This document shows positions 25,426 through 47,593 of a stretch of DNA of 64,000 nt, piece after piece. The translations under genes were made by a program, and so were the position numbers. Origin of the DNA: Polynucleobacter sp. AP-Ainpum-60-G11. Lineage in GTDB: Bacteria > Pseudomonadota > Gammaproteobacteria > Burkholderiales > Burkholderiaceae. The notes under the pieces were generated by a model. It saw only the letters and a list, made by a program, of their open reading frames with translations, was not told the origin of the DNA and did no database searches. Where the stretch lies: NCBI RefSeq assembly GCF_018688375.1, contig NZ_CP061318.1:1178001-1242000 (forward strand), given 5' to 3'. The first letter of the stretch is position 1, and each line of letters begins with the position of its first letter.

Positions 25426-25521
25426 GATTTCTTTTCCGGACATGAACTACTTTCTTTGGTATTGGATACGTCAATTGAAGATGAACTTTAGCAGGGATAG
25501 CAGAGTCCTGCAGATGCCACA

Positions 25522-29566: not shown

Positions 29567-29592
29567 GTTCTTTTCGCTATATCAAGTTAATC

Positions 29593-29615
29593 ATCAACCC
29601 CCAGTGGGGATTGAT
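29593..29615. repeat. hairpin between hydroxylase operon and bdhA
   Basis: ATCAACCCCC-AGT-GGGGATTGAT, a long inverted repeat with one bulged A. No T-run, so not a canonical terminator; may separate or modulate the two transcripts. Confidence 0.4.
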
Positions 29616-29693
29616 GTATGGTCAAAACTCGATGTTACAGGATGCGATACGCCCTTCGATACGGGGAATGCACTAATGAAGGCGAACTCTTCT

Positions 29694-32090
29694 TTACACC
29701 TTGCCAAGGGCCTTCAGAATCTTTTCACAGGTAATTGGCTGATCAAATACAGCGACATTAAAGGGCGCCAAAGCATCATTGATGGCATTCTGGACCGCTC
29801 CAGGAGCCCCAGCAGTACCAGCCTCACCAGCCCCTTTTGCCCCTAACTTGGATGACTGGGTTGGTGTCTCCACGTGAGCCACTTCAATATCAGGCATTTC
29901 ATTTGCCATCGGCACCAAATAGTCCGCCATACTTCCATTGCGTAACAAACCGCTATCGTCATAGAGGCACTCTTCGAAAAGCACGCCTCCGATACCTTGA
30001 ACGATTGCTCCACGTACCTGCTCATCAACCAACATCGGATTTAATACGCGACCGCAATCTTCAACTGCCCAATGCTTTAGCAGCTTCACAAATCCAGTAT
30101 CAGGATCAACCTCAACGTAAGACGCCTGAACACCATTGGTAAAGATGAATGGATATTCTTTCTGGGTGTAATGACGTGTAACCATTAAGTCAGCAGAGAA
30201 ACCCACCGGCAAGGTATCAGTACGGAAATAGCCAATCCGTCCGATCTCGCTAAACGGCAACAATTGCTCTCCACTAGACTTATCCAATACATGGCCGCGA
30301 CGAACTGATAGCTCCTCAGGAGATCTATTCAAAATAGCGCCAGCTAGCTTCAGGATATTTTCTTGAAGCGCCTGGCAAGCGAGCAATACAGCCTCACCAC
30401 CAACTCCAGCACCGCGAGAAGCCCAGGTGCCACCACCGTATGGAGTGACATCGGTATCGCCAGTAATGATGCGGACGTCTTTAATTGAGAGTCCCACGGC
30501 ATCGGCAGCAATTTGCGCATAGATGCCTTCGGTACCCTGACCCTGCTCACCAACGCCGATCAAAATGGAAACCACTCCACTAGGATCTAAACGAGCGGAA
30601 GCCCCATCCTGAGAGGCAATGCGAGCACCACCCACGCCATAGAAGGCCGGACTTGGATTGGTTAACTCAATTAATGTAGCAAAGCCTATGCCGCGATAGA
30701 TGCCTTTTTTGCGCAACTCAGCCTGCTCCTGACGCAATGCAGAATAGTCCATCATCTTTTCAATCGTGCGCAAACATTGCTCGTGGGATAGGACCTCTAA
30801 CTTGATTCCAGAAATTCCAGAGCATGGATATGCGTCATCAGGAATTACATTGCGCTTACGAAACTCCAAGGGATCCATCTTTAACTTTTGCGCCGCCAAA
30901 TCTACCAAGCCCTCAGTTACAGCGCAAGCAATTGGATGCCCCACTCCGCGGTATTGACATGTAGGCGTTTTATTCTGAAACACCACATTCAGCTTAGCTC
31001 TGTAATTTTGATGCTTATAGGGCCCGCCAACTAAGTTGACAACTTGATTGCCCTCAATCGCACTCGTTCTGGGGAACATAGAATATGGACCAATAGCAGT
31101 GAGATCGTCGATCTCAAACGCCAAAATATCACCCTCTTTATTTGCCGCAATGCGTCCTTTAATTCGATGCTCACGTGCGTGAATATCACTTGTAAATGAT
31201 TCGAGGCGATCAGCTACAAATTTGACCGGGCGCTCCAACATCATCGCCAAGCCTACCGTTGCAAAGTCATCAGGATACGCGTGCACTTTAATGCCGAAGG
31301 ACCCTCCCACGTCTTTACAAATAACATGGACATCAGACTCAGACAAGCCAAACTGACGGCAATATAAATCCTGCATCATATGTGGTGCTTGCTGCGAGTG
31401 ATACACCGTCAAACGACGATCACCAGGGTTGTAGTCAGCAATTTGACAGCGAGGCTCTAAGGTCACACCAGTATGACGACCAAACCCAAAGGTAGCTTCT
31501 GCAACGACATCTGCCGTTGCAAACACCTCGTCAACCTGACCAACATCCAAGCTACGCGTAAAACACAGGTTGTCACCTAATTCAGGATGAATGACTGGCG
31601 TCTGGGGATCCAATGCGGTTTCCATAGAAACTACTGCGGGTAACTCTTCCCATTCCACATCAACTAATTGCAATGCGTCTTCTGCCTGTGCACGCGTCTC
31701 AGCAACAACGGCAACTACAGGCTCACCCTGCCAGCAAGCCCTATCAATTGCCAAAGCATATTGAGGGGCAGACTTCATGCCAGCGAGATGACCCAAGGTG
31801 GCAACCCATGGCTTGCAAAGCTCCGCCATCTTGACGCCGTCCACTATTGCTAGAACACCCGGCATTTTGCTTGCCTGTTCTGTATGAATTTTTCCAATTT
31901 TCATATGCGCTACTGGCGAACGCCAATAGACCACATGTCCCATTCTGGGTAATTGAATATCATCCACATAAGTACCCTGACCCTCGATGAGTCGACGCGC
32001 CTTATGTCTAGGTTCGCTATTACCAATGTAGCGTTGATCATTGGTAACTGGATCAAGCACTAATCCTTTGAGATCTGCTGGCTTATTCAT
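29694..32090 (-). CDS. molybdenum hydroxylase large subunit (CoxL/XdhA type, non-CO)
   Basis: 798 residues of the xanthine oxidase/CO dehydrogenase large-subunit family. Near the N-terminus is the GKARRLIEGQGTYVDD type lead-in; moco contacts include GGSFGIK near residue 272, GQGTEGIYAQIAAD near residue 525 and GAKGAGEAGTAGAPGAVQNA near residue 753 with the catalytic Glu. The active-site loop reads CQYRGVG where true CO dehydrogenase has AYxCSFR, so it does not oxidise CO; it hydroxylates an organic (often N-heteroaromatic) substrate. Last gene of the G-M-S-L operon. Confidence 0.9.
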   Translation of the reverse strand: MNKPADLKGLVLDPVTNDQRYIGNSEPRHKARRLIEGQGTYVDDIQLPRMGHVVYWRSPVAHMKIGKIHTEQASKMPGVLAIVDGVKMAELCKPWVATLGHLAGMKSAPQYALAIDRACWQGEPVVAVVAETRAQAEDALQLVDVEWEELPAVVSMETALDPQTPVIHPELGDNLCFTRSLDVGQVDEVFATADVVAEATFGFGRHTGVTLEPRCQIADYNPGDRRLTVYHSQQAPHMMQDLYCRQFGLSESDVHVICKDVGGSFGIKVHAYPDDFATVGLAMMLERPVKFVADRLESFTSDIHAREHRIKGRIAANKEGDILAFEIDDLTAIGPYSMFPRTSAIEGNQVVNLVGGPYKHQNYRAKLNVVFQNKTPTCQYRGVGHPIACAVTEGLVDLAAQKLKMDPLEFRKRNVIPDDAYPCSGISGIKLEVLSHEQCLRTIEKMMDYSALRQEQAELRKKGIYRGIGFATLIELTNPSPAFYGVGGARIASQDGASARLDPSGVVSILIGVGEQGQGTEGIYAQIAADAVGLSIKDVRIITGDTDVTPYGGGTWASRGAGVGGEAVLLACQALQENILKLAGAILNRSPEELSVRRGHVLDKSSGEQLLPFSEIGRIGYFRTDTLPVGFSADLMVTRHYTQKEYPFIFTNGVQASYVEVDPDTGFVKLLKHWAVEDCGRVLNPMLVDEQVRGAIVQGIGGVLFEECLYDDSGLLRNGSMADYLVPMANEMPDIEVAHVETPTQSSKLGAKGAGEAGTAGAPGAVQNAINDALAPFNVAVFDQPITCEKILKALGKV

Positions 32091-32108
32091 AATGTTTTCC
32101 CAGTCTTC

Positions 32109-32618
32109 TTAAGCGAGGGCAACAACAGGTTTAATTTTTTCACCTTTGGCACGAGCTTCAAGCACGGCCATGATGGCATCTACTATGGAGTGGTAGCCAG
32201 TGCAACGGCAGTAATTGCCAGAGATCCATTCACGCACTTCTTCGCGCGTGGCTTTTGGTTGCTTTTCAACCAACTCTGCAGCTGCAAGCAGCATGCCTGA
32301 GGAGCAAAATCCACATTGCATTGCGTTATGACGCATAAAAGCTTCTTGAAGATCTGCCAATGCACCACTTTTAGTCAAGCCCTCAATCGTTTCCACTACA
32401 CAGCCATCAGCTTGAACAGCCAGATATAAGCAGCCACGAATGATTTGACCATCCACCTTAACAGTGCAGGCACCACAAGCACCCTGCTCACACCCGAGGT
32501 GAGGCCCCTTTAAATGCAAATCTTCACGCAGAAAATCTACCAAATGGCGGCGCGGCTCAATTTCAGCATTGACTACCGAACCATTGACGGTCATCGTAAT
32601 TTTTTTCTTTAAGCTCAT
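32109..32618 (-). CDS. molybdenum hydroxylase small subunit, two [2Fe-2S] (CoxS type)
   Basis: 169 residues. Plant-type ferredoxin cluster Cys in CEQGACGACTV near residue 44 and the later C-x22 position, then the alpha-helical domain with MQCGFCSSGM near residue 98 and CRCTGYHSI near residue 136. It passes electrons from moco to the FAD subunit. Spaced 18 bp before the large subunit and 43 bp after the FAD subunit. Confidence 0.93.
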   Translation of the reverse strand: MSLKKKITMTVNGSVVNAEIEPRRHLVDFLREDLHLKGPHLGCEQGACGACTVKVDGQIIRGCLYLAVQADGCVVETIEGLTKSGALADLQEAFMRHNAMQCGFCSSGMLLAAAELVEKQPKATREEVREWISGNYCRCTGYHSIVDAIMAVLEARAKGEKIKPVVALA

Positions 32619-32661
32619 CTCAATCTCCGAACTCGATTTATCTTGTATTAATTTTTATTAA

Positions 32662-33516
32662 TTAAGCAATCAAATGCTTTAAGCCACGCTCTAACAAAAC
32701 ACCAATCAAATGCCGCTTTGTTTCTGCACTATTGGTGATATCTGCAATTGCATCAATTTCTGCTCTTGCAGCAGCAACTGCACTAGCAATCAGATCTTCA
32801 TTCAGAGGCTTACCATCAATTAATGCTTGAGCCCTAGTTGCCATAACGGGTGTTGCACCAACTGAAAAGAAAGTGAAAGTGCAATCGCTCAGAACATTAC
32901 CGACTTTATTGGCAACCAAGGCAAGTCCTGCAACCGCATAGTCCCCATGGCGACGAGCCAGCTCATGAAAATAAAAAACTTGATTGCTGCTTGCCACTGG
33001 AAATTCAGTTGCCACTAGAATTTCATCAGGCTCTAAGGAGGTGGTGTACAGATCAATAAAAAAGTCTTGAGCCGAAATACGACGTTCGCCAGCAGGGCCT
33101 GCAATCAACATCGTTGCATTGAGCGCCAAACTACAGGCGGGCCATTCAGCTGCAGGATCTCCGTAAGCCAGGGATCCGCCCCAAGTCCCTAAGTTACGGA
33201 TCGCTCTGTGCGCAATGTGCGGTACGGCAGCCTTGAGGAGCGGAGCATGTTGTGCAATTAACTTCGAATCCTCAATCTCAGTATGGGTGACTAAAGCGCC
33301 AATGCGCAATTGCTCACCGATTACAGAAATTCCCTTGAGTTCATCTAGATGGGTAATGTCAATCAGAACACTGGGCTCAGAAAGACGCAGGTTGAGCGTA
33401 GCCAAAAGCGTCTGGCCACCGGCAATCAAACGGGCATCTTCACCCGCCTCAGCCAGTAAAGCTAAGGCTTCGCTCAGGGCCTTTGGTTTTGCATAATCAA
33501 ATGCGGCTGATTTCAT
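32662..33516 (-). CDS. molybdenum hydroxylase FAD subunit (CoxM type)
   Basis: 284 residues. The FAD-binding loop AGGQTLLATLNLRL near residue 31 and the second flavin motif NLGTWGGSLAYGDPAAEWP near residue 109 are both present, with CO-dehydrogenase FAD C-terminal domain after residue 175. GGAGGAG precedes the ATG. It accepts electrons from the small subunit and passes them to a quinone or other acceptor. The third member of the minus-strand operon. Confidence 0.92.
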   Translation of the reverse strand: MKSAAFDYAKPKALSEALALLAEAGEDARLIAGGQTLLATLNLRLSEPSVLIDITHLDELKGISVIGEQLRIGALVTHTEIEDSKLIAQHAPLLKAAVPHIAHRAIRNLGTWGGSLAYGDPAAEWPACSLALNATMLIAGPAGERRISAQDFFIDLYTTSLEPDEILVATEFPVASSNQVFYFHELARRHGDYAVAGLALVANKVGNVLSDCTFTFFSVGATPVMATRAQALIDGKPLNEDLIASAVAAARAEIDAIADITNSAETKRHLIGVLLERGLKHLIA

Positions 33517-33556
33517 TACGTCTCCTCCACTACTTTTATATTTATATCGCCAAGCT

Positions 33557-34033
33557 TTATTCAGCCTGTGCGTCCGACTCTAGAGGCAGCACTTCGCCAC
33601 CCAATTCTTTTGCAAAGCGCTGAAAAAAATCGTCCGCAATCTTTTTGGCTGAAGCACTAATAAGGCGCCCGCCAATTTGTCCCAGCTTGCCTCCAATAGA
33701 GGCCTCCGTTGTGTAGGAGATTAAGGTGCCACCATCAACGAGCTTTAATTCCACCCGTGAGCGCCCTTTTGCAAATCCTGCGGCACCACCAGACCCCTCA
33801 AATGCCATTGAACAGGATTGATCAGGAATAACGTCACTCAATAAGAGCTTCCCAGCAAATCTGGCTCTTACAGGCCCAATCTTGAACATCACCTTCGCAT
33901 GGATCTCTTCAGGGGAAATGCGGCTAATCTCTTCACAACCAGGAATCGACTTGGCGAGAACATCGATATCGTTCAACCCTTTCCATACATCAGGGATTGG
34001 AGCCGCAATGAGTTGCTCGCCGTTTAATTCCAT
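33557..34033 (-). CDS. CoxG-like SRPBCC protein
   Basis: 158 residues. Starts MELNGEQLIAAPIPDVWKGL, then PGCEEIS, the GKLLLSDV strand and SYTTEASIGGKLGQIG of the CoxG family. CoxG proteins of molybdenum-hydroxylase loci help membrane attachment or delivery of the enzyme; a related role is inferred. AAGGAG precedes the ATG. First gene of the operon, divergent from the TetR gene across 111 bp. Confidence 0.88.
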   Translation of the reverse strand: MELNGEQLIAAPIPDVWKGLNDIDVLAKSIPGCEEISRISPEEIHAKVMFKIGPVRARFAGKLLLSDVIPDQSCSMAFEGSGGAAGFAKGRSRVELKLVDGGTLISYTTEASIGGKLGQIGGRLISASAKKIADDFFQRFAKELGGEVLPLESDAQAE

Positions 34034-34144
34034 TACTTCTCCTTGGGGTTTGTACGAATAGAGTCTTATCTACCAATTGTTCAACAATGTACCATTATTT
34101 AACTTTTGGTCAATAAGGCCAAATTCGGATAAACCCTGACAACA
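34034..34144. promoter_or_regulatory. divergent control region coxG / tetR
   Basis: Contains a perfect palindrome ATTGTT-C-AACAAT (34076-34088) and a looser TTGG...CCAA repeat near 34105-34122. A TetR-type repressor encoded beside it would be expected to bind a site like the first, which would control both transcripts at once. Binding is inference. Confidence 0.5.
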
Positions 34145-34849
34145 ATGAGTTTGGATCGAGATCGCAGCACCAGCAACAGTGACGCTACTGAAGTAGCTGC
34201 AACTGGTGCGCCTACTCGTCGCAGAATGAGTACGGCAGATCGTAAGCGCCAGATACTCGATCGTGCAATTCAGTACTTTGCGAAGCATGGGATTGATGGG
34301 CAACTCAGGAACCTCACAAAAGGTCTGGGCGTTACCCATACTCTGCTTTACCACTACTTCCCCACTAAGGACGCTTTAATCAAAGCCGTCTATGAAGATG
34401 TCTTTGAGTCCCGCTGGAAGTCTGAATGGGAGCAACTTTTAGACGATAAGACTCTTTCACCAGAAGAAAAATTCAACGCCTTTTATATCGACTACTCCAA
34501 TACTGTACTCACCTATGATTTCGTGCGCATCCTTATATTCTCAGGCTTGAGTGACCACTCCATCAGCGACAGATTCTTTGAACTATTGCGTGACCGCCTC
34601 CTGCCTCGACTCATACGAGAAACCCGCAAACACTGTGGTCGCACCAACCGCGGGAAGCCTTCGCAGCGGGAGTTGGAGTTTTTAATGGGCCTGCATGGTG
34701 GCATCTTTTATATCGGGATGCGTCGCTGGATTTATGGCCAAGCAATCTACGACTCCGGAAACCCCAATACAGAGCAAGAAATCATTCAAGATCGAATTAG
34801 CTCTTACCTCAACTCAGCAAAAACTTTATTTTCTACTGGTAAAAAATAA
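34145..34849 (+). CDS. TetR-family transcriptional regulator
   Basis: 234 residues. The helix-turn-helix region is RKRQILDRAIQYFAKHGIDG, then LTKGLGVTHTLLYHYFPTKDALIKAVYEDVF, a standard TetR N-terminus after a 28-residue leader. The ligand domain is unremarkable. It starts a transcript that continues one base later into the VOC gene and then the FAD hydroxylase, and is divergent from the molybdenum hydroxylase operon. Likely local repressor with the pathway substrate as inducer; inference. Confidence 0.88.
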   Translation: MSLDRDRSTSNSDATEVAATGAPTRRRMSTADRKRQILDRAIQYFAKHGIDGQLRNLTKGLGVTHTLLYHYFPTKDALIKAVYEDVFESRWKSEWEQLLDDKTLSPEEKFNAFYIDYSNTVLTYDFVRILIFSGLSDHSISDRFFELLRDRLLPRLIRETRKHCGRTNRGKPSQRELEFLMGLHGGIFYIGMRRWIYGQAIYDSGNPNTEQEIIQDRISSYLNSAKTLFSTGKK

Positions 34850-34850
34850 T

Positions 34851-35309
34851 ATGACGAACCTCAGCCTGAATCATTTCTCAATCCGCAGCCTCGAGATTGA
34901 AAAGACCACGCAGTTTTACAGTGAAGTACTTGGCTTGACCGTGGGGCCACGCCCAGAGTTTCCATTTCCAGGAGTCTGGCTTTACAACGGGGATGAAAAT
35001 GATTGGGCCAATGCAGTATTGCACCTCATTGCGATTGATAAGAATGATCCCAATGGCTTAAAACAATACCTCGGGGAGCGCGACCCTAGTTCACTCTTTG
35101 GTTCTGGGGCGGTCGATCACATTGCCTTCTTTGCCAAAGGCTTGGAAGCAAAGCTTATACAGCTTGAAAAGTTAGGCGTTCCTTGCAGACAGCGGACAGT
35201 GCCCGTATTGCAGTTACACCAAATCTTCTTAGATGACCCTAATGGGATCGTGATTGAATTGAATTACCCTGCTGCAGAAAAAGTAGCATTGGATGCCAAG
35301 ACCGTATAA
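34851..35309 (+). CDS. VOC/glyoxalase-family protein
   Basis: 152 residues from ATG 34851, one base after the tetR stop; longer in-frame starts lie inside tetR and are unlikely. VOC metal ligands are visible: His8 (LNHFSIRS), His in LHLIAI, and Glu in VIELN near residue 140, plus DHIAFF. The fold supports glyoxalases, extradiol dioxygenases and isomerases. In this context a ring-cleavage or isomerase step on the hydroxylated ring is plausible, but not shown. Confidence 0.82.
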   Translation: MTNLSLNHFSIRSLEIEKTTQFYSEVLGLTVGPRPEFPFPGVWLYNGDENDWANAVLHLIAIDKNDPNGLKQYLGERDPSSLFGSGAVDHIAFFAKGLEAKLIQLEKLGVPCRQRTVPVLQLHQIFLDDPNGIVIELNYPAAEKVALDAKTV

Positions 35310-35314
35310 GTCAA

Positions 35315-36553
35315 ATGGCAAAAATTCTAGTCATCGGTGGATCTCTTGGAGGCTTATTTGCAGCCAATATATTGCTGCGCCAGGGTCACGATGTCACGCT
35401 ACTAGAAAAAGCGGTTGGCTCTCTTGATGGCAGAGGCGCCGGCATTGTGACACACGATGCACTCGCAGATGCTTTGCGTGAATCGGGTATTGCTATTGAT
35501 GACGGCCTGGGAGTTGCTGTATCGAAGCGCGTTACCTTGGGCGCAGATGGGGAAAGCTTGGGTGAAATGCCACTCCCTCAAATTCTGACTTCATGGAGTC
35601 GCCTGTATCACCTACTGAAGGAAAATTTTCCAAGTGAGCGCTACTTACAAGGTAAGAATGTAAAAAAAGTTACTCAGGATTCCAGCGCTGTACAGGTGCT
35701 TTGCGAGGATGGTAGCGCTTATGAGGCAGAGCTATTAATTGCATCAGATGGCATACGCTCCGCGGTCAGATCTCAAGTAGCGCCAGAGATTCAGCCTGAA
35801 TATGCTGGCTATATTGCGTGGCGCGGTGTTTGCGATGAAAGCCATCTCTCGAATTACACGCTTGAAACACTCTTTAATTACTTTGGATTCTGCCTGCCCA
35901 ATGGCGAGCAAATGCTGGGCTACCCAGTCGCAGGATCTGGTAATGACACTAGACCAGGTAAGCGACGCTATAACTTTGTATGGTATCGACCCGCCTCGGA
36001 AGACAATGAGCTCGTCAAACTCTTAACGGATGCAGATGGCCACCACTACCCAACAGGTATCCCACCACTAAAAGTATCTTGGAGGCATATTGCTGAGATG
36101 CGAACGATTGCTCGCGAGATTTTGGCACCTCAATATGCAGAAATTTTGGAAAAAACTGCTTCACCATTTTTGCAGGCAATTTACGATGTTCGCTCTGAGC
36201 AAATTGTCTTTGGAAGAATTGCCTTAATGGGTGATGCAGCCTTCGTTGGCCGCCCCCATGTCGGCATGGGCGTTACCAAGGCGGGTGATGAAGCTATGGT
36301 GATTGCACGGCACATTGCACAACTGGGGGCAACTCCAGCTGCACTTCAAGCCTACAGTAAAGAACGATTGCAGCTTGGGCAACAAGTAGTTGCCAGGGCT
36401 CAGTACCTTGGGCGTTACATGCAGGCACAGGGGAGCAAGGGTACCCGAGATAGCAGTAGCCTAAGAAGAAATGCAGATACGGTAATGGCAGAAACTGCTA
36501 TCGATATCAGCGTGTTACTTGCAGAAGGAAAAGCGGTTCCAGAGTCGTATTAA
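35315..36553 (+). CDS. FAD-dependent aromatic hydroxylase, 2,6-dihydroxypyridine-monooxygenase-like
   Basis: 412 residues. PHBH-fold flavin monooxygenase: dinucleotide motif VIGGSLGGLFAANILLRQG (residues 5-23), DG motif LLIASDGIRSAV near residue 147, and GD motif RIALMGDAAFVGRPHVGMG near residue 303. The GGSLGGL variant and the long His/Gly second motif are those of the 2,6-dihydroxypyridine 3-hydroxylase group. The usual reaction is NADH-dependent ring hydroxylation. Downstream of TetR and VOC, 5 bp after the VOC stop, so one operon. Confidence 0.8.
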   Translation: MAKILVIGGSLGGLFAANILLRQGHDVTLLEKAVGSLDGRGAGIVTHDALADALRESGIAIDDGLGVAVSKRVTLGADGESLGEMPLPQILTSWSRLYHLLKENFPSERYLQGKNVKKVTQDSSAVQVLCEDGSAYEAELLIASDGIRSAVRSQVAPEIQPEYAGYIAWRGVCDESHLSNYTLETLFNYFGFCLPNGEQMLGYPVAGSGNDTRPGKRRYNFVWYRPASEDNELVKLLTDADGHHYPTGIPPLKVSWRHIAEMRTIAREILAPQYAEILEKTASPFLQAIYDVRSEQIVFGRIALMGDAAFVGRPHVGMGVTKAGDEAMVIARHIAQLGATPAALQAYSKERLQLGQQVVARAQYLGRYMQAQGSKGTRDSSSLRRNADTVMAETAIDISVLLAEGKAVPESY

Positions 36554-36601
36554 TCATCAGATGTAGATTTAAGCTTTACTAGAAACATTCAGTTAAGATT
36601 T

Positions 36602-36658
36602 ATGAAACAAAAAGTATTCTTATTCACAAACTGTTTTAAATGGAGGAGACAACCATGA
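36602..36658 (+). CDS. 18-residue upstream ORF coupled to binding-protein gene
   Basis: A short frame MKQKVFLFTNCFKWRRQP whose first five codons repeat the first five codons of the following gene exactly (15-bp direct repeat at 36602-36616 and 36655-36669). Its stop TGA overlaps the downstream ATG as ATGA. No good ribosome site is visible before it. Either a coupled leader or a relic of a small duplication. Confidence 0.35.
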   Translation: MKQKVFLFTNCFKWRRQP

Positions 36659-37890
36659 AACAAAAAGTAACGAATCAAACCAGAAGAAAAATGTTGATCG
36701 GCGGAGCTGCGGCAGCAAGCACCCCGCTTTGGATGAATATGGCAAATGCCCAATCGGACACCATTAAGATTGGCTTCCCTACACCGCTAACGGGCCCCTT
36801 CTCTGCCGAAGCACAGGATCAAGTTAAAGCAGCTGAATTAGCCATCAAAGAATTCAATGATGCAGGCGGCTTTAATGGACGCAAAGCTGAACTCTTAGTT
36901 CGTGATGACAAGCTGAATCCAGGTGAAGCTGCAACACGTACTCTGGAGTTAATTGAAAAAGATAAGGTGAACTTTGTTGTGGGTTCACTGTCAGCCGCAA
37001 CTCAGCTCTCCATTAATGCTGTTTGTAAAGAGCGCAAGGTACTCTTCAATTCCATCAGCCAGTCTGATGCGATTAACGAGGCGAAAGATTGGAGCGTATA
37101 TACATTCCATGAAGCGTTGAACCCAACCATGACAGCTGGTGCAGTAGCCCGGTACTCTATTCCCCGTTTTGGTAAGAAGATCGTATTCTTGACGGCTGAC
37201 TATGCTTATGGCCACGAGATGGTTCGCGCTTTTGAGCGTGCCGGCAAGGAGATGGGCGCCACTACTTTGGCAGATATTCGCCATCCATTAGGCGCATCCG
37301 ATTACTCTGCATTCTTGCCACGCATCAAGGCATTAAATCCAGATATTTTGGTGCTCTGTAACTTTGGTCGTGACCTTGTGAACGCAGCTAAGCAATGCAC
37401 AGACTTTGGCTTGAAGTCCAGCATGAAAATTGTTACCCCTGTTCTGCTCTATACAGCACGCTTGGCTGGTGGCCCAGAAGCGTTCGAGGGAATTATCGGC
37501 GGCACTTCGTATTATTGGGGTCTCGAGGATCGCATCCCAACAGCCAAAACATTTAATGATGCATTCCGCAAAATGTATAACGGCTCAGTACCTTCCGACT
37601 ACGGTGCACTAGGTTACGCTGGAGTAAAAACTGTTCTTGCCGCGGTCAAGGTTGCTAAATCTACCGACACAATGAAAGTGGTCAATGCTCTAGAGAATCT
37701 CAAGTACGACTTTTACAAAGGTCCTGAGTACTATCGCAAGTGTGACCATCAGGCTGTTCAAACGGTCATCATCGTTGAGTCCAAATCAAAGAATATGAAA
37801 GATAAGTATGACGTCTTCAATATTCTGACAATCGAACCAACAACCGAGAAGAATATGCGTAGTTGCGCGGAGCTAGGCCACAAGGCTTAA
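36655..37890 (+). CDS. branched-chain amino acid-type ABC substrate-binding protein (Tat exported)
   Basis: 411 residues from ATG 36655, directly after the ribosome site GGAGGAGACAACC. The leader QTRRKMLIGGAAAAS is a twin-arginine-style signal, cut near NAQS. The mature Periplas_BP_6 domain starts DTIKIGFPTPLTGPFSAE. This Liv-family receptor delivers its ligand to the permeases LivHM that follow. Context with aromatic catabolism suggests an aromatic or aromatic-acid ligand rather than leucine; that is inference. Confidence 0.88.
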   Translation: MKQKVTNQTRRKMLIGGAAAASTPLWMNMANAQSDTIKIGFPTPLTGPFSAEAQDQVKAAELAIKEFNDAGGFNGRKAELLVRDDKLNPGEAATRTLELIEKDKVNFVVGSLSAATQLSINAVCKERKVLFNSISQSDAINEAKDWSVYTFHEALNPTMTAGAVARYSIPRFGKKIVFLTADYAYGHEMVRAFERAGKEMGATTLADIRHPLGASDYSAFLPRIKALNPDILVLCNFGRDLVNAAKQCTDFGLKSSMKIVTPVLLYTARLAGGPEAFEGIIGGTSYYWGLEDRIPTAKTFNDAFRKMYNGSVPSDYGALGYAGVKTVLAAVKVAKSTDTMKVVNALENLKYDFYKGPEYYRKCDHQAVQTVIIVESKSKNMKDKYDVFNILTIEPTTEKNMRSCAELGHKA

Positions 37891-37901
37891 ATCTGAAATT
37901 T

Positions 37902-37927
37902 CAGGACAGATCAACTGATTTGTCCTG
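37902..37927 (+). terminator. hairpin in receptor-permease spacer
   Basis: Perfect 7-bp stem CAGGACA/TGTCCTG with a 12-base loop, just after the receptor stop. It lies before the stronger hairpin at 37932-37960 and has no T-run of its own. Confidence 0.5.
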
Positions 37928-37931
37928 GACC

Positions 37932-37966
37932 CTCCCCCGATGCCTTTGGCTGAAGGGGAGTTTTTC
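37932..37966 (+). terminator. attenuating terminator between receptor and permease genes
   Basis: CTCCCC/GGGGAG stem followed by TTTTT. Such partial terminators let the receptor be made in excess over the permease in Liv-type operons. Confidence 0.7.
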
Positions 37967-37977
37967 TGAGTACATAT

Positions 37978-38862
37978 ATGACCGGCCTTACATTTGAACT
38001 TCTCTGCATGCAGTTACTGACAGGTATTGCCCTGGGCAGTATCTATGCACTTCTAGCATTGGGCTTATGCCTTATTTTTGGCATGCTGAATGTTGTCAAT
38101 TTTGCCCATGGCGCCTTCTTCATGGTTGGTGCATTTATGGGCGTCTATTTCTTAGGTGTAACAGGTAACTTTTGGTTTAGCTTAATTCTTACGCCAATTG
38201 CCACTGGAGTACTTGGATTACTGACTGAGCGATTCTTGGTGAGACCACTCTACGGACGTGGCATTGACTATCCGCTACTTCTGACTTTTGGTTTGTCTTA
38301 TGTGTTGATAGAAGCAATGCGCGTCACCTTTGGTATCGAGGGCCTGCCTTCTGTTACCCCCGATGGACTTAAAGGCACTCTAGACGTTGGTATTGGCTTC
38401 TTTCCTAAGTACCGCCTCTTTCTTATCGCTGCTACAGCCCTCATTATTTTCGCAGTTTGGTTTTTTATTCAAAAGACGCGCTATGGTCTGATTATTAAAG
38501 CTGGTGCTGCTGACCAAGAGATTGTCAAAGTACTTGGGGTGGATATCGCCAAGGTATGGTTGATGGTGTTCGGACTAGGTTGCGCGATCGCTGGCCTCTC
38601 CGGAATATTGGCCTCACCAACCCGCTCCGTAAACCCAGAAATGGGCATTCCAATCTTGGCAGAATCATTTGTTGTCACAGTAGTTGGAGGCATGGGTTCA
38701 CCAGTAGGTGCTGTTGTTGCCGGCTTGTTAGTTGGCGTGGTTTACAGCATGACTTCGCTGTTTTTCCCCGACCTCTCTGAACTGTCTATTTTTATTTTGA
38801 TGGCGGTAGTGCTCTTAATACGACCACAAGGCTTATTTGGTAAAGCGGGGGCAATGGGCTAA
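37978..38862 (+). CDS. livH: branched-chain amino acid-type ABC permease LivH-like
   Basis: 294 residues, eight or so membrane helices, starting LCMQLLTGIALGSIYALLALGL. The EAA-like cytoplasmic loop (GAADQEIVKVLGVDIAKVW) near residue 175 and the FVVTVVGGMGSPVGAVVAGLLVG segment near residue 228 are typical. It forms the channel with LivM, and is followed by it after 14 bp. Confidence 0.92.
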   Translation: MTGLTFELLCMQLLTGIALGSIYALLALGLCLIFGMLNVVNFAHGAFFMVGAFMGVYFLGVTGNFWFSLILTPIATGVLGLLTERFLVRPLYGRGIDYPLLLTFGLSYVLIEAMRVTFGIEGLPSVTPDGLKGTLDVGIGFFPKYRLFLIAATALIIFAVWFFIQKTRYGLIIKAGAADQEIVKVLGVDIAKVWLMVFGLGCAIAGLSGILASPTRSVNPEMGIPILAESFVVTVVGGMGSPVGAVVAGLLVGVVYSMTSLFFPDLSELSIFILMAVVLLIRPQGLFGKAGAMG

Positions 38863-38876
38863 TCCCCGAACTATTT

Positions 38877-39836
38877 ATGAAATCATTTTTCCAACTCATT
38901 GCACGTCATCGCGTGCTAGCAAGCAGTCTCTTATTGATGATTTTTCCCTTCATCATGCCGTACGAAGCACTTGCTATCAACATTTTGATCTTTGGCTTAT
39001 TCGCCATGGGATTTAATCTCTTGTTTGGCTATATGGGCTTACTGTCCTTTGGTCATGCGGCCTTTCTTGGAATTGGTAGCTATCTCACTGGTATCAGCAT
39101 CGTTCACTACACCTTGCCCTGGGGCACTGCAATTCTGGTGGGCGTTATTGGTGCCGCTATCGGCGGACTGATTATGGGTTTTCTGGCAATCCGCACCAGG
39201 GGCATCTACTTCTCCATGGTTACGCTCGCATTAGGTCAAATCGTGTTCTATTGTTTTTACAAGGCTGAAAGCTTAACTGGTGGCGAAAATGGCCTAAGGG
39301 GAGTGCGTGTTGACTCCTTCAATATTTTGGGTATGCCAGTTGACTTTCTCAACCCGCTTGTGAAGTACTACATCATTCTCTTTTTTGTAGTCATCGCTAT
39401 CTGGCTCATCTCTCGAATCCTGAGCTCACCTCTTGGTGCAGTCATGGAAGCGATTCGTGAGAACGAGAAGCGTGCAGCTGCCTGCGGATTTGATGTAGCC
39501 CGCACAAAACTGTTGGTATTTGTACTTTCTGCTGCAATCTGCGGCCTAGCAGGTTCATTGCGCGCTCTGCATCTCTCGATTGTTCCAATAGATTCACTCC
39601 ACTATCTTCAGTCTGGACAGGCAGTCATGATGAGTATCTTGGGCGGTATGGGCACCTTCTTTGGACCATTTGTTGGCGCTGCTGTCATGCTCTATCTAGA
39701 GGATGTAGTGACTACCTTCACCAAGCATTGGATGGCAGTCATCGGCCTGATCTTTATGTTCTTTGTTCTGTTCTTCCCTAAGGGAATCTGGGGAACCATC
39801 TTGAGCAAGCTAAACCTCAATCAGGATTTGAAATAA
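38877..39836 (+). CDS. livM: branched-chain amino acid-type ABC permease LivM-like
   Basis: 319 residues with multiple membrane segments, MGFNLLFGYMGLLSFGHAAFLGIGSYLTG near residue 42, a cytoplasmic loop ENEKRAAACGFDVARTK near residue 198, and a terminal ILGGMGTFFGPFVGAA near residue 255. Second permease of the importer. Its stop TAA overlaps the ATG of livG by one base (TAATG). Confidence 0.92.
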   Translation: MKSFFQLIARHRVLASSLLLMIFPFIMPYEALAINILIFGLFAMGFNLLFGYMGLLSFGHAAFLGIGSYLTGISIVHYTLPWGTAILVGVIGAAIGGLIMGFLAIRTRGIYFSMVTLALGQIVFYCFYKAESLTGGENGLRGVRVDSFNILGMPVDFLNPLVKYYIILFFVVIAIWLISRILSSPLGAVMEAIRENEKRAAACGFDVARTKLLVFVLSAAICGLAGSLRALHLSIVPIDSLHYLQSGQAVMMSILGGMGTFFGPFVGAAVMLYLEDVVTTFTKHWMAVIGLIFMFFVLFFPKGIWGTILSKLNLNQDLK

Positions 39837-40591
39837 TGAGTAGCTCAAACCAAACCCCTATTCTTGAGGCTCGCAATGTCAGTAAGAGCTTTGGGAAATT
39901 TAAGGCCCTGCAAGATGTTTCCACTACATTTATGCCAGGCTCCCTCACCGCAATCATTGGCCCCAATGGTGCTGGAAAGAGTACATTCTTTAATGTCCTC
40001 AGCGGCGCCTTTCCCCCTTCTAGCGGTCAGATCCTATTTAACGGCAAAGATATTACCGGTATGCAGCAATACGAATTTGCACGCATCGGCATCTCTAAGA
40101 GTTTTCAAATTACCAATGTATTTAAACAGTTAACCGTTCACGAAAATGTACGGGTTGCTGCGCAAATGGAAACTGCGCGCTATAACTTTTTACGTAATGC
40201 ACAAAGTTACCCAGGGCCAATAGAGCTTGCAGATCAACTCTTGCGCCGTGTCAATTTAGAACACCTCAGGAATAAAAAAACAGGTGACCTGGCTCACGGT
40301 CAACAGCGTGCTTTAGAAATTGCGATGGCCCTTGCTTGCAACCCAAGCCTTCTACTACTTGATGAACCAACTGCCGGCATGTCTCCTGAAGAAACCCTCG
40401 TCATGATGGATCTCATTCGTACACTTGCAAATGAGAGAACGGTTATTTTGGTTGAGCACAAGATGAAACTCATCATGGGTTTATGCAAGCGCATCATCGT
40501 TCTTCATCACGGTGAGTTTTTAGCTGAAGGCACTCCTGAAGAAATTCAAAATAATGCAGAGGTACGACGTGTGTACCTAGGCCAAGGTTAA
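39836..40591 (+). CDS. livG: branched-chain amino acid-type ABC ATPase LivG-like
   Basis: 251 residues. Walker A GPNGAGKST near residue 42, Q-loop region GISKSFQ, an LivG-type linker where the signature reads LAHGQQRALEIAMAL near residue 152, Walker B LLLLDEPTAGMSPEE, and the H-loop ILVEHKM. Energises the importer with LivF, whose gene starts 13 bp later. Confidence 0.93.
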   Translation: MSSSNQTPILEARNVSKSFGKFKALQDVSTTFMPGSLTAIIGPNGAGKSTFFNVLSGAFPPSSGQILFNGKDITGMQQYEFARIGISKSFQITNVFKQLTVHENVRVAAQMETARYNFLRNAQSYPGPIELADQLLRRVNLEHLRNKKTGDLAHGQQRALEIAMALACNPSLLLLDEPTAGMSPEETLVMMDLIRTLANERTVILVEHKMKLIMGLCKRIIVLHHGEFLAEGTPEEIQNNAEVRRVYLGQG

Positions 40592-40604
40592 CGAAGGTTT
40601 ATAT

Positions 40605-41309
40605 ATGTTGCGCATTGAAAATTTAAATGCTTGGTATGACCGAAGCCATGTTCTGCAAGGCGTCTCTTTAGAGGTAAATAAGGGTGAAATTGTTACCTTA
40701 ATGGGTCGTAACGGGGCTGGAAAGACAACTACCCTTCGCTCATTAATGGGGCTACTCTCAAAAAGAGAAGGTAAAGCCTTCATTGATGGCACCTCTTTTT
40801 TAGAGCTTGCAGCCCATGAGCGCTATCACCTGGGTCTAGCATATGTCCCGGAAGATCGACGCATTGTTCCAGGACTTACTGTTAAAGAAAATTTGGAGTT
40901 GGGCCTGATTGCGCAAAAAAGCCGTGGTGACCTGAGTGCCATGGTTGATGAAATCGCTGAAACCTTTCCTCGCCTAAAGGAGAGATTGCAACAAGATGGA
41001 ACCTCCATGTCGGGTGGCGAGCAGCAGATGCTAGCAATTGCGCGCGCCATGATTGCTAAGCCCAAAGTGATCCTCTTGGATGAGCCATCAGAAGGCATCA
41101 TGCCGGTATTAGTTGAGGAAATGTTTGAACTCTTTGCCAAACTTAAGCAGCAGGGCTTAACAATTCTTTTGGTTGAACAAAATGTTCAGCAAGCGCTCAA
41201 GATTTCAGACAGAGCCTACATTCTTGATCAAGGAGAAATTGTTTTCCATGATACAGCCCAGAATCTGTTGAACAATGATGAGATTCAACAAAAGTACTGC
41301 GCTGTTTAA
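40605..41309 (+). CDS. livF: branched-chain amino acid-type ABC ATPase LivF-like
   Basis: 234 residues. Walker A GRNGAGKTT near residue 36, AYVPEDRRIVPGLTVKENL Q-loop segment, signature MSGGEQQMLAIARAM near residue 130, Walker B ILLDEPSEGIMP, H-loop LVEQNVQ. The SEGIMP after Walker B is LivF-typical. Last gene of the importer; converges with the DedA-like gene. Confidence 0.93.
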   Translation: MLRIENLNAWYDRSHVLQGVSLEVNKGEIVTLMGRNGAGKTTTLRSLMGLLSKREGKAFIDGTSFLELAAHERYHLGLAYVPEDRRIVPGLTVKENLELGLIAQKSRGDLSAMVDEIAETFPRLKERLQQDGTSMSGGEQQMLAIARAMIAKPKVILLDEPSEGIMPVLVEEMFELFAKLKQQGLTILLVEQNVQQALKISDRAYILDQGEIVFHDTAQNLLNNDEIQQKYCAV

Positions 41310-41325
41310 TCCTTTTTACGACTAC

Positions 41326-41829
41326 TTAAATGATGTGAAGCCAATGGCCTATCTGGTGCCACACGCTTGTAGGCACTAAGGTTAGTAACCAGGTCATAGT
41401 GAGATAACGTAATAGCTTGCCAATACACATATAGATCAAGCAAGGCGCCCAAGGCAGCCTAAGCCACCCAGCAGCCAAGCACAGAGGATCACCAAAACCA
41501 GGAAGCCAAGACAAAAGAAGCATCTTAGGCCCCCGCTCCTCCAACCAACGCTGCATTCTGCCGCTAGAGGGACCTTTTAATGACTCAAAGCTGTTACGAC
41601 TGAGTACACCAAGCCACCAGTCCAGCATACCCCCTAAGGTATTGCCAATGGTGGCAACAATGATGGCAATCCAATATAAATGGGGGTTGACTGAAACATA
41701 GCCAAATAGGATGGGCTCCGAACCTACAGGCAGTAAAGTTGCTGACACAAAAGCACTAATGAATACCGCTGGTAAACCAACCGATGGCATACCAAAGAAG
41801 TCGAAGAACTGGACCAGCATTTGCTCCAT
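41326..41829 (-). CDS. YqaA/VTT-type membrane protein (DedA-related)
   Basis: 167 residues, four membrane segments with the SNARE-associated/VTT motif SWLPGFGDPLCLAAGWLRLPW near residue 110 and GKLLRYLTMTWLL near the end. The N-terminus AVFISAFVSATLLPVGSEP is the usual YqaA pattern. Members are small membrane proteins involved in lipid or envelope homeostasis, function not settled. Confidence 0.82.
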   Translation of the reverse strand: MEQMLVQFFDFFGMPSVGLPAVFISAFVSATLLPVGSEPILFGYVSVNPHLYWIAIIVATIGNTLGGMLDWWLGVLSRNSFESLKGPSSGRMQRWLEERGPKMLLLSWLPGFGDPLCLAAGWLRLPWAPCLIYMCIGKLLRYLTMTWLLTLVPTSVWHQIGHWLHII

Positions 41830-42016
41830 TAATTAAGGGATCTCGAAAGGTTGGTAAGCAAAGACTTGGTCATCCCCCAAGTATGCCCCAAGCGCTTTCA
41901 AGAACGATAATCAGGAGGCTTGGTGACGCTATTTATGAGTCGCCCGCAATTCTGAATTCTTGCTTAAACTGTGGGTATTAGCCCATTCATTAACCACCAT
42001 TTTTATAGATATCCAC

Positions 42017-43186
42017 ATGAATCACCCGATCCCCAAGCCAGACCAATACCAAGACATGCGCGAGGCCTTACGTGACCTCTGCGGTAGTTTTGACTCCGCC
42101 TATTGGCAAAAAGTGGATCATGAACGAGCATACCCAGAGGCCTTTGTAGATGCGATGGCACAAGCTGGCTGGTTAGCAGCCCTGATACCAGAAGAATATG
42201 GTGGCTCTGGCTTAGGTCTTGCTGAAGCCTCCGTCATCATGGAAGAAATTAATTTCTCTGGCGGTAATGCAGGCTCTTGTCACGGTCAGATGTACAACAT
42301 GGGTACCTTGCTTCGCCACGGCTCGGATATCCAGAAGAAACTCTACTTACCCAAGATCGCTACTGGAGAATTACGCCTCCAAAGCATGGCAGTTACCGAA
42401 CCCACGACCGGTACCGACACCACTAAGCTCAAAACCACTGCTGTCAAAAAAGGTGACAAGTATGTGGTGAACGGTCAAAAGGTTTGGATCTCCCGTATCC
42501 AGCATTCTGATTTGATGATTTTGCTAGCACGCACCACCCCACTCGCTGAGGTAAAGAAAAAATCAGAGGGCATGTCAATCTTTATCGTCAATCTCAAGGA
42601 TGCGATTGGCAAAGGCATGGAGATTCAACCCATTGCCAATATGGTGAACCACGAAACTAATGAAGTCTTCTTTGATAACTTAGAAATTCCTGCTGAGAAT
42701 TTAATCGGGGAAGAAGGTCAAGGCTTTAAATACATCTTGGATGGACTTAATGCAGAGCGTGTTCTGATTGCCGCTGAGTGTATTGGAGATGCTTATTGGT
42801 TTGTAGATAAGGCTCGTCGCTACGCAAATGAACGCGTGGTATTTGATCGACCCATTGGCAAGAACCAAGGCATTCAATTTCCAATTGCAGATTCGTATAT
42901 TGAAACTGAAGCAGCCAATCTGATGCGCTTTAAGGCTTGCGAGCTATTTGATGCCAAGCAAGCTTGTGGCGCTGAATCCAATATGGCCAAGTACTTAGCT
43001 GCCAAAGCCTCGTGGGAAGCTGCAAACGTGTGCCTGCAAACCCATGGCGGCTTTGGTTTTGCTAATGAATATGATGTTGAACGCAAGTTCCGAGAAACCC
43101 GTCTCTACCAAGTGGCTCCAATCTCCACCAACTTAATCTACTCTTATGTAGCCGAGCATATTCTAGGGCTTCCGCGTTCTTTCTAA
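42017..43186 (+). CDS. acyl-CoA dehydrogenase family protein
   Basis: 389 residues from ATG 42017; an in-frame start 57 bp upstream is unlikely. FAD and substrate motifs: MAVTEPTTGTDTT near residue 120, KVWISRIQHSDLMI near residue 155, and helical C-domain with ERVLIAAECIGDAYWFVDKA near residue 245 and QTHGGFGFANEYDVERKFRE near residue 345. In the usual catalytic position (xYEGT) the sequence is YQVAPIST, so the base may be the Glu in ERVLIAAEC, as in isovaleryl-CoA type enzymes. Forms a catabolic pair with the CoA-transferase 40 bp downstream. Confidence 0.9.
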   Translation: MNHPIPKPDQYQDMREALRDLCGSFDSAYWQKVDHERAYPEAFVDAMAQAGWLAALIPEEYGGSGLGLAEASVIMEEINFSGGNAGSCHGQMYNMGTLLRHGSDIQKKLYLPKIATGELRLQSMAVTEPTTGTDTTKLKTTAVKKGDKYVVNGQKVWISRIQHSDLMILLARTTPLAEVKKKSEGMSIFIVNLKDAIGKGMEIQPIANMVNHETNEVFFDNLEIPAENLIGEEGQGFKYILDGLNAERVLIAAECIGDAYWFVDKARRYANERVVFDRPIGKNQGIQFPIADSYIETEAANLMRFKACELFDAKQACGAESNMAKYLAAKASWEAANVCLQTHGGFGFANEYDVERKFRETRLYQVAPISTNLIYSYVAEHILGLPRSF

Positions 43187-43226
43187 TGAGATCTTTTGAT
43201 TAATACAGTTTTGGATATGTAATTAC

Positions 43227-44411
43227 ATGAGTATTCGGCCTCTAGATGGCATTACCGTAGTTTCTTTAGAACACGCTATTGCAGCCCCATTTTGTACACG
43301 CCAATTGGCAGATTTGGGTGCACGTGTAATCAAGGTAGAAAGGCCTGGTGCTGGAGACTTCGCCCGCGCCTATGATGAGCGCGTCAATGGGATGTCCTCT
43401 CACTTCACTTGGGTCAATCGCTCCAAAGAAAGTTTGACCTTAGATCTCAAACAAGCTTCAGCATTAGCAGCCCTCAAGGCACTCCTCAAAACAGCGGATG
43501 TATTAGTGCAGAACTTAGCGCCCGGTGCAGCTGCGCGTATGGGACTGACTGCAGAGCTCTTGCAAAAAGATAATCCAGGTTTGATTTTGTGCGACATCTC
43601 AGGCTATGGAAATAATGGTCCTTATCGAGATAAGAAAGCTTACGATCTCCTAATTCAAAGTGAGGCTGGATTTTTATCAGTGACTGGCACTCCAGAAACA
43701 CCCAGTAAGGCTGGCAACTCGATTGCCGATATTGCTGCAGGCATGTACGCCTATACCAACGTATTGGCTGCGCTACTGCAAAGAGGTAAGACTGGAAAAG
43801 GGTCCACTATCGATGTCTCAATGCTGGAGTCTTTAGGCGAATGGATGAGCTACCCGCTTTACTACGCGTATGAAGGTGCTACACCACCCCCTCGCAATGG
43901 TGCATCCCATGCCACAATTTATCCCTATGGTCCCTTTAAAGCTGGCGACGGTGGTACTGTAATGCTGGGTCTACAAAACGACCGTGAGTGGGTTTTATTC
44001 TGCGAAGTAGTGCTCGAGAATCAAGCTCTAGCCAAAGATGAGCGCTTTGATAAAAACTTTAAACGCAATGAAAAGCGCGATGAACTGCTCTCGATCATTG
44101 ATGCCTGCTTTAGTCAGCTGACTACTGAACAGGTGATTGCAAAGCTAGATAAGGCCCAAATTGCAAATGCTCGCCTCAACGATATGCTGGGCTTATGGAA
44201 TCACGAACAACTTAAAGCTCGAGATCGTTGGGTACAAGTTGGTTCGCCTGTAGGCTCCATTCCAGCCATGCTACCTCCTGGCACCAATGACAGCTACGAC
44301 TACCGCATGGATGAAATCCCATCGGTAGGTCAACACACCAATGCAATCTTAGGTGAACTTGGTATTGCCGCGAGCGAGATTGAGGCTATGCGAGCGCAAG
44401 GAGCAATTTAA
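43227..44411 (+). CDS. class III (CaiB/BaiF) CoA-transferase
   Basis: 394 residues. N-terminal DGITVVSLEHAIAAPFCTRQLADLGARVIKVER is the family start; the catalytic Asp is in KAYDLLIQSEAGFL near residue 142. Family III enzymes exchange CoA between acids, for example in carnitine, succinyl or oxalate metabolism. The pair with the acyl-CoA dehydrogenase suggests activation then oxidation of an organic acid. Its stop TAA shares TTAA with the stop of the cardiolipin synthase gene. Confidence 0.9.
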   Translation: MSIRPLDGITVVSLEHAIAAPFCTRQLADLGARVIKVERPGAGDFARAYDERVNGMSSHFTWVNRSKESLTLDLKQASALAALKALLKTADVLVQNLAPGAAARMGLTAELLQKDNPGLILCDISGYGNNGPYRDKKAYDLLIQSEAGFLSVTGTPETPSKAGNSIADIAAGMYAYTNVLAALLQRGKTGKGSTIDVSMLESLGEWMSYPLYYAYEGATPPPRNGASHATIYPYGPFKAGDGGTVMLGLQNDREWVLFCEVVLENQALAKDERFDKNFKRNEKRDELLSIIDACFSQLTTEQVIAKLDKAQIANARLNDMLGLWNHEQLKARDRWVQVGSPVGSIPAMLPPGTNDSYDYRMDEIPSVGQHTNAILGELGIAASEIEAMRAQGAI

Positions 44412-46832: not shown

Positions 46833-46897
46833 GAGTTAAAAAAGGGAAATTGTTTGCATTTATGCCATTTTGCCATTGCCTTGCTAGAATCAAGCCC
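46833..46897 (+). promoter_or_regulatory. tupB upstream region
   Basis: Holds an extended -10 element (TGCTAGAAT, core at 46885-46890) and a direct repeat TGCCATT-T-TGCCATT (46863-46877) ending eight bases before it, in a position to act as an operator. No good -35 exists. The regulator is not identifiable here. Confidence 0.4.
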
Positions 46898-47593
46898 ATG
46901 TTTACGACCTTTCAGGACGCCCTCACACTTCTCACGCACTTAGATGCCGGGGTAATTGGGATCGTTTTAGTCTCCCTTCAGGTTAGCTTGTCGGCACTCC
47001 TGCTCGGCACCCTCATTGGTCTGCCCTTGGGAGCGGTTTTAGCAACCGAAGAATTCATTGGCAAAAAGACGATCACAGTTACCTTAAATACCCTTATGGG
47101 CGTTCCGACAGTCATCGTAGGCGTTGTGGTTTACCTCTTACTCTCCCGAACAGGGCCTTTAGGTGTCTGGGGATGGCTTTTTACGCCCAAAGGCATGATC
47201 CTCGCCCAAACACTACTCACAACCCCCTTAATAGCCGCCCTAAGCCGCCAAATTCTGGAAGATTCCTGGAGAATTCATAGAGACTCATTTATGGCTCTTC
47301 GCTTGCCCAGACTTTCTTCACTGAAATGGCTGATCTGGGACTGCCGTTTTTCCCTGACAATTGCCGTGCTGGCTGGACTGGCTAGAGCAATATCCGAGGT
47401 CGGAGCGGTCATGATTGTCGGTGGCAATATTGACCATTACACGCGCACCATGACCACAGCAATTGCGCTTGAAACTAGTAAGGGCGACCTCCCCCTAGCA
47501 CTTGCCCTGGGCATTGTTTTGCTTGGCATAGTGCTGTTAGCAAATCTCTTCACATTTGCAGTCCGTCAAGTTGCGGAGCGTCGCTATGGTTAA
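46898..47593 (+). CDS. tupB: tungstate ABC transporter permease TupB
   Basis: 231 residues from ATG 46898 (a longer frame begins 48 bp earlier without a ribosome site). Six membrane segments and the binding-protein-dependent transport loop GLARAISEVGAVMIVGGNID near residue 163. The protein shape and the GGNIDHYTRTMTTAIALETSKGD tail after the loop are TupB-like. It forms the channel for tungstate. The ATPase start overlaps its stop by 8 bases. Confidence 0.9.
   Translation: MFTTFQDALTLLTHLDAGVIGIVLVSLQVSLSALLLGTLIGLPLGAVLATEEFIGKKTITVTLNTLMGVPTVIVGVVVYLLLSRTGPLGVWGWLFTPKGMILAQTLLTTPLIAALSRQILEDSWRIHRDSFMALRLPRLSSLKWLIWDCRFSLTIAVLAGLARAISEVGAVMIVGGNIDHYTRTMTTAIALETSKGDLPLALALGIVLLGIVLLANLFTFAVRQVAERRYG

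Follow-up and report, generated by a model that had tools for sequence, protein, structure and literature searches.

A probable ring-compound cassette in Polynucleobacter that joins a molybdenum hydroxylase, a flavin monooxygenase, a VOC-fold protein and a Liv-type importer

In this report, we describe a cassette of about 11.8 kb (29567-41325) in a 64,000-nucleotide stretch, the window, of Polynucleobacter sp. AP-Ainpum-60-G11 (NZ_CP061318.1, positions 1,178,001 to 1,242,000), whose genome is a single contig of 1.91 Mb; at this locus, the named relatives closest to it are strains of Polynucleobacter. The cassette brings together a three-subunit molybdenum (Mo) hydroxylase with a CoxG protein, a TetR-family regulator, a vicinal oxygen chelate (VOC) protein, a FAD-dependent monooxygenase (FMO) and a complete Liv-type importer, and it probably imports and hydroxylates a small ring compound, most likely a nitrogen-containing one. 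With confidence somewhat better than even, we read it as a catabolic unit for a small aromatic ring, most likely N-heteroaromatic, that would act through Mo hydroxylation, flavin hydroxylation and VOC-dependent ring processing. We infer this chemistry and substrate, and favor the N-heteroaromatic reading, because the closest solved kin of FMO is 2,6-dihydroxypyridine hydroxylase (DHPH) and the best solved match of the Mo large subunit, CoxL, is quinoline 2-oxidoreductase (Qor).

On the minus strand, CoxG, CoxM, CoxS and CoxL run in that order from 34033 down to 29694, while on the plus strand TetR, which starts 111 bases from CoxG, is followed by VOC, FMO and LivK-H-M-G-F (Table 1). The open reading frames and the Pfam and NCBIfam matches agree here with the initial annotation, which had placed CoxG-M-S-L divergent from TetR-VOC-FAD monooxygenase, followed by a full Liv importer. 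The cassette is a block that related strains have or lack as a whole, with sharp borders. Six strains were fetched of the 11 FMO-negative genus genomes with an ortholog of a nearby acyl-CoA dehydrogenase, and in all six, which are syntenic, an SDR gene (above the cut-off of the 3-hydroxybutyrate dehydrogenase subfamily) adjoins a VTT/DedA-like gene (PF09335) with a gap of 53-257 bases. Since these empty sites place the two genes side by side, we take the 11,759 bases that lie between them in the window to be the cassette, where GC content gave no sign of an island.

The components also occur together across genomes. An FMO ortholog is present in 31 of 61 genus genomes, about half, and all 30 genomes with a CoxL ortholog (at least 76%) are FMO-positive as well; the presence of the two agrees in 60 of the 61, the exception (G052) being a genome that is 78% complete. 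We surveyed the best 80 of 249 FMO loci: in 79 of them VOC immediately precedes FMO on its strand, at a distance under 300 bases, and in the remaining one (L060) the contig ends 81 bases from the FMO start. Among loci with room, that is, with enough flanking sequence to count, 57 of 64 have CoxL, 64 of 71 LivK, 63 of 73 TetR and 57 of 62 LivF. CoxL was not found in L010, L034, L066, L070, L071, L079 and L081; TetR is missing in L037, L045 and L047 as well.

A palindrome conserved in the divergent promoters suggests one TetR switch for both transcripts. The window carries TCAACAATG-n3-CATTATTTA at 34081-34101, two mismatches away from the palindrome TCAACnATG..CATnGTTGA, to which TetR would bind; this site was found by the consensus scan, having been missed by an earlier palindrome search of the promoter. 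The scan, for TCAACnATG-n(3-6)-CATnGTTGA and allowing at most three mismatches, recovered a match in 53 of 63 divergent regions (six perfect, nine with one mismatch, 36 with two and two with three), a count that is not independent evidence because the consensus was derived from some of the sequences counted and many regions are close kin. Mononucleotide-shuffled sequence of five loci gave 0.04 palindromes per 20 kb.

The Mo hydroxylase, the DHPH-like flavoprotein, VOC and the importer are apparently one co-regulated module, and this part of the initial annotation stands; its inclusion of the acyl-CoA dehydrogenase and the CoA-transferase does not. The VTT/DedA-like gene, on the opposite strand, sits between the end of LivF and the dehydrogenase, and the CoA-transferase, a PLD-domain gene and an OYE gene are likewise in place in all six cassette-free strains. 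Orthologs of the dehydrogenase (at least 80% identity; 37 genus genomes) occur in 16 of 19 FMO-positive and 11 of 18 FMO-negative genomes, two of the 11 broken or fragmented, and in the survey the gene lies near FMO in 26 of 29 Polynucleobacter-like loci (L002-L044 and L080) and in none of the 26 other loci with room. On ortholog counts, empty sites and locus survey together, we reject both CoA genes as pathway members.

The flavoprotein had been likened to DHPH from sequence, and this likeness was confirmed: FMO residues 3-374, near full length, align with DHPH (2vou) at 177 bits, the next solved protein following at 61.5. FMO also exceeds the cut-off of the PRK07236 subfamily (461.9 versus 333 bits). 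VOC-linked FMOs like that of the window form a 28-row clade (support 100/100) in a tree of 50 rows, and residues invariant in these 28 rows and different in DHPH, R40, H47 and R72 among them, suggest that the substrate of FMO differs from that of DHPH.

For CoxL, the best solved match is Qor (1t3q, 460 bits). Its loop reads QYRGVGHP, the counterpart of AYRCSFR in CO dehydrogenase (CODH, 1n5w) and of AYRGVGFT in Qor, which upholds the earlier claim of a non-CO active-site loop, and the motif GAKGAGE, which we take to hold the catalytic glutamate, is present. In a 45-row tree, CoxL and proteins from Methylobacterium, Loktanella and Dinoroseobacter share a 27-row clade (support 100/100), outside which lie CODHs, KdhL, QorL and three xanthine dehydrogenases. 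QorL branches next to this clade at a fork that the tree does not resolve, nor does the tree separate which of Qor, KdhL and CODH is nearest. Clustering of the large subunit with purine xanthine dehydrogenases, which had been named as grounds against an N-heteroaromatic substrate, did not appear: CoxL scores 237.1 against a cut-off of 849.5 bits on the xanthine dehydrogenase model TIGR02965, whereas L175-L177, near 5-hydroxyisourate (HIU) hydrolase genes, pass it (1217-1297 bits) and form their own 100/100 clade, so that score and tree rule out membership in that group (L178 is weakly placed elsewhere in the tree). CoxG, presumably an accessory factor of the Mo enzyme, is the sole PF06240 match in the genome. 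Maturation of such enzymes usually needs XdhC-type and nucleotidyltransferase proteins, and in this genome an XdhC-domain gene and a nucleotidyltransferase gene lie some 600 bases apart. In another locus (L143:6503-7600), a luciferase-like monooxygenase, a further flavin partner of this Mo lineage, adjoins a CoxL relative (63%), and Liv-type importer genes and a dehydrogenase are present there too.

VOC, with its start taken as 34851 (34845 in the Pfam, curated-model and PDB sequence scans), passes the PF00903 cut-off and gave no PDB match by sequence. Its structure model, with a predicted local distance difference test (pLDDT) score of 86.4, has 307 Foldseek matches at E of 0.001 or below, mostly glyoxalases and Fos proteins among the 50 listed. 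H8, H58, H90 and E136, which we assume to be positions of the metal-ligand type, are invariant in 42 sequences. The Liv-type (HAAT) importer is complete and in order, with a PF13458 binding protein, PF02653 twice and PF00005 twice. The solved protein closest to LivK is 3i09, and its closest solved relatives bear generic names only, so they offer no clue to the substrate.

These components can be arranged into a working model with five steps: (i) The Liv importer would bring in the ring compound. (ii) CoxLMS, with CoxG, would hydroxylate the ring carbon adjacent to the nitrogen, using water. (iii) The DHPH-like FMO would then use NADH and O2 to add another hydroxyl group, giving a hydroquinone resembling 2,3,6-trihydroxypyridine. 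(iv) VOC may open, isomerize or otherwise process this unstable product, after which general enzymes would finish the breakdown. (v) TetR is predicted to switch both divergent transcripts via the one palindromic operator, whose conservation is observed.

The VOC-FMO pair also accompanies a second Mo enzyme. In the Limnohabitans group (L066, L070, L071 and L079), it stands beside a Mo hydroxylase of two-subunit type with the same Mo domains rearranged, and in L053, L059, L065 and L072 this second enzyme lies beside the CoxL module, both types in one locus. Plasmids of Burkholderia pyrrocinia and of two Paraburkholderia carry VOC-FMO beside a Mo enzyme with rearranged domains; their VOCs (three compared) adjoin FMO and are 48-51% identical to that of the window, and the three clusters also encode DUF485, an acetate-symporter-like protein, an amidohydrolase, an alkene reductase, cytochrome c and a 2Fe-2S protein. 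Judged by sequence, the two Mo types are only distantly related and differently built: in two of these plasmid clusters (L170 and L173), the Mo subunits share 36-40% identity with their Limnohabitans-group counterpart but just 21-23% with CoxL (284-428 residues aligned). The stretches fetched from Rhizobium, Bosea, Agrobacterium, Pantoea and Methylobacterium (three of the last) yielded no VOC of the window's type. On three plasmids (L102, L106 and L107), one each of Rhizobium, Bosea and Methylobacterium, a small cupin-like gene, so called from its match to 9u8n, follows FMO and takes the part of VOC as its neighbor, and in L163, L164 and L166 a gene without a name occupies this place. As a tentative idea, which we hold rather doubtful, VOC might be the missing ring-opening enzyme for hydroquinones of the 2,3,6-trihydroxypyridine type, the step described as unclear in the pyridine pathway of nicotine breakdown, and FMO-VOC a portable core serving differing Mo hydroxylases.

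Further candidate partners were considered and rejected. An ACMSD-like amidohydrolase (L157:12520-13725) turns up repeatedly in the vicinity of FMO or Mo genes, in several lineages and on several plasmids, and has no match in the window genome; for a 3-hydroxyisobutyrate-dehydrogenase-like partner, the best match in the genome is 27%. The isochorismatase family, sought as a possible maleamate amidase, has one match in the genome, which is uninformative.

Several observations weigh against an N-heteroaromatic substrate or a single module. CODH is nearly equal to Qor as a solved match of CoxL (449 versus 460 bits), and the best curated model of CoxL, glyceraldehyde dehydrogenase, below its cut-off, differs in substrate class from the best solved match. 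DHPH lies outside the 28-row FMO clade, with L162 and the second FMO of L170, on a long branch and with unsure placement. The fold matches of VOC are generic, with glyoxalases, Fos proteins and dioxygenases mixed. The nearest solved protein to the B. pyrrocinia Mo subunit is the aldehyde dehydrogenase 8gy3, which makes N-heterocycle hydroxylation by the second Mo enzyme less likely. The palindrome was not found in 10 of the 63 divergent regions, and VOC-FMO of L081 has no recognised Mo subunit in its vicinity. Finally, two Polynucleobacter-like loci (L010:9485-11236 and L034:9522-11242) have VOC-FMO without CoxL, TetR or this importer nearby.

Some of these points suit a nitrogen-free ring, for which the Mo enzyme would turn an aromatic aldehyde into an acid, FMO would hydroxylate it in the manner of salicylate hydroxylase and VOC would cleave the resulting diol. 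The glyceraldehyde dehydrogenase model of CoxL and the aldehyde dehydrogenase kinship of the second Mo subunit are in line with such a route, as are two entries in the VOC fold list, 9u42 (titled homogentisate 1,2-dioxygenase) at rank 30 and L-DOPA dioxygenase at rank 36. FMO, however, scores 177 bits against DHPH and 58.9 against salicylate hydroxylase, and we consider a nitrogen-free ring unlikely.

Oxidation of a purine or methylxanthine at C-8, with CoxLMS acting like caffeine or xanthine dehydrogenase and FMO hydroxylating the urate product at C-5 (the unstable product decaying by itself or via VOC), is an unlikely account as well, though one that plasmid relatives bring to mind. Four Methylobacterium plasmids were listed with both CoxL and FMO genes; on the three fetched, CoxMSL-Liv-CoxG and a relative of FMO come after genes for an NCS1 nucleobase symporter and a racemase-family protein, two uraH genes and uraD (in L102, FMO lies 93 bases after uraD), with puuE annotated on one. 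One Methylobacterium strain was isolated from coffee root, and caffeine dehydrogenase is described as a heterotrimer of 90, 32 and 20 kDa (PMC10380055). The window genome, however, has no match to PF00576 (HIU hydrolase) or PF09349 (2-oxo-4-hydroxy-4-carboxy-5-ureidoimidazoline, OHCU, decarboxylase), and PF00576 occurs in four of the 61 genus genomes, all FMO-positive, leaving 27 of the 31 FMO-positive genomes without it. FMO scores 98.6 against a cut-off of 500 bits on the FAD urate hydroxylase HpxO model (NF033623), and the fetched stretches round the Rhizobium and Bosea FMOs, which are near the Methylobacterium FMO in the tree, gave no uraH or uraD match.

That FMO-VOC is an independent detoxification or processing unit merely co-located with the Mo hydroxylase would explain L010 and L034; the shared divergent promoter with its one candidate operator, the joint presence or absence of FMO and CoxL, and the association with two Mo-enzyme types make it quite improbable. 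An aerobic CODH operon with unrelated neighbors, which the CoxG-M-S-L gene set might evoke and for which a carbon monoxide dehydrogenase is tabulated in two of four Polynucleobacter strains (PMC5018217; perhaps at another locus), is ruled out as an identity, to the point of being barely conceivable, by the missing loop, by failed curated-model scores (452.9 against a cut-off of 991.15 and 472.3 against 950) and by the position of the CODHs outside the CoxL clade.

Table 1. Positions of the cassette features and of two genes beyond its border
Feature	Position	Strand	Basis
CoxL-type Mo-binding large subunit (Qor-like), 798 aa	29694..32090	-	PF20256, PF02738, PF01315
CoxS-type [2Fe-2S] small subunit	32109..32618	-	PF01799, PF00111
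CoxM-type FAD medium subunit	32662..33516	-	PF00941, PF03450
CoxG protein, probable accessory factor	33557..34033	-	PF06240, 92.2 bits
Candidate TetR operator, divergent promoter	34081..34101	no strand	TCAACAATG-n3-CATTATTTA; palindrome consensus match
TetR-family regulator	34145..34849	+	PF00440
VOC-fold protein, 152 aa, putative ring-processing metalloenzyme	34851..35309	+	PF00903
FAD-dependent class A monooxygenase (FMO), DHPH-like, 412 aa	35315..36553	+	PRK07236 subfamily
LivK-type periplasmic substrate-binding protein	36640..37890	+	PF13458, 278.6 bits
LivH-type permease	37978..38862	+	PF02653, 131.3 bits
LivM-type permease	38877..39836	+	PF02653, 131.7 bits
LivG-type ATPase	39836..40591	+	PF00005, PF12399
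LivF-type ATPase	40605..41309	+	PF00005
Acyl-CoA dehydrogenase, outside cassette	41960-43186 as listed		
CoA-transferase, outside cassette	43227-44411		

Beyond the borders, the acyl-CoA dehydrogenase probably does not begin at the TTG given as its start, and an ATG at 42017 fits better because relatives align only from about residue 4-20 and several have stops in that stretch. An ABC permease and ATPase, possibly an oxyanion importer, lie at 46850-48296, on the way from the cassette to a gene for an alpha subunit resembling that of formate dehydrogenase (50624-53608, under the Fdh-alpha cut-off); the permease exceeds a general permease subfamily cut-off and, on the model of the tungstate permease TupB, reaches 165.6 of 320 bits. 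On the other side, at 24343-26469, the OYE-type reductase sits beside a LysR-like gene, which is found in five of the six cassette-free strains. Alkene reductases 39-40% identical to this OYE occur in two of the FMO-VOC plasmid clusters.

The genus Polynucleobacter, common in fresh water, has small genomes. Because 31 of the 61 genus genomes carry FMO, nearly always with the Mo enzyme, the substrate of the cassette would be an unrecognised part of the turnover of dissolved organic matter. The FMO-VOC pair offers a testable candidate for the obscure step that follows flavin hydroxylation of dihydroxypyridines, and genes of this type are at risk of being misread as CO dehydrogenase.

The initial annotation had found no known pathway with this combination of Mo hydroxylase, FMO, VOC and Liv genes, and within the titles and abstract openings of the open-licence PMC literature we likewise met no description of a module of Mo hydroxylase, DHPH-like FMO, VOC and importer. 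Parts of it do resemble known systems. CoxL shares the YRGVG loop with Qor, its best solved match, and departs from it in YRGVGHP as opposed to YRGVGFT. The caffeine C-8 cluster of Pseudomonas sp. CBB1 (cdhABC, tmuM, tmuH and tmuD), as outlined in PMC4408171, similarly pairs a heterotrimeric Mo enzyme with a subsequent FAD monooxygenase; unlike it, the window genome has no match to the HIU-hydrolase or OHCU-decarboxylase family, and, compared by description, TmuM is HpxO-like whereas the FMO of the window falls far under the HpxO cut-off. The nicotinate (hxn) pathway of Aspergillus nidulans, in the excerpt of PMC9304392 consulted, has a Mo hydroxylase, flavin hydroxylases, a proposed 2,3,6-trihydroxypyridine and an alkene reductase, the last with annotated counterparts in all three Burkholderia and Paraburkholderia clusters; it differs in that HxnV has a phenol 2-monooxygenase domain and that the excerpt names no VOC gene. 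The pyridine pathway of nicotine breakdown on pAO1, as summarized in PMC6122326, proceeds through Mo hydroxylases (Kdh), a hydrolase and then DHPH, with the later fate of 2,3,6-trihydroxypyridine called unclear. Like the cassette, it places a three-subunit Mo hydroxylase upstream of a flavin hydroxylase of the DHPH type, the best solved match of FMO; unlike that pathway, the core here includes VOC, the Liv importer, CoxG and TetR, and KdhL and DHPH fall outside the CoxL and FMO clades on long branches. Without claiming membership in nicotine breakdown, we suggest by analogy that the cassette may work like its Mo hydroxylase and DHPH part.

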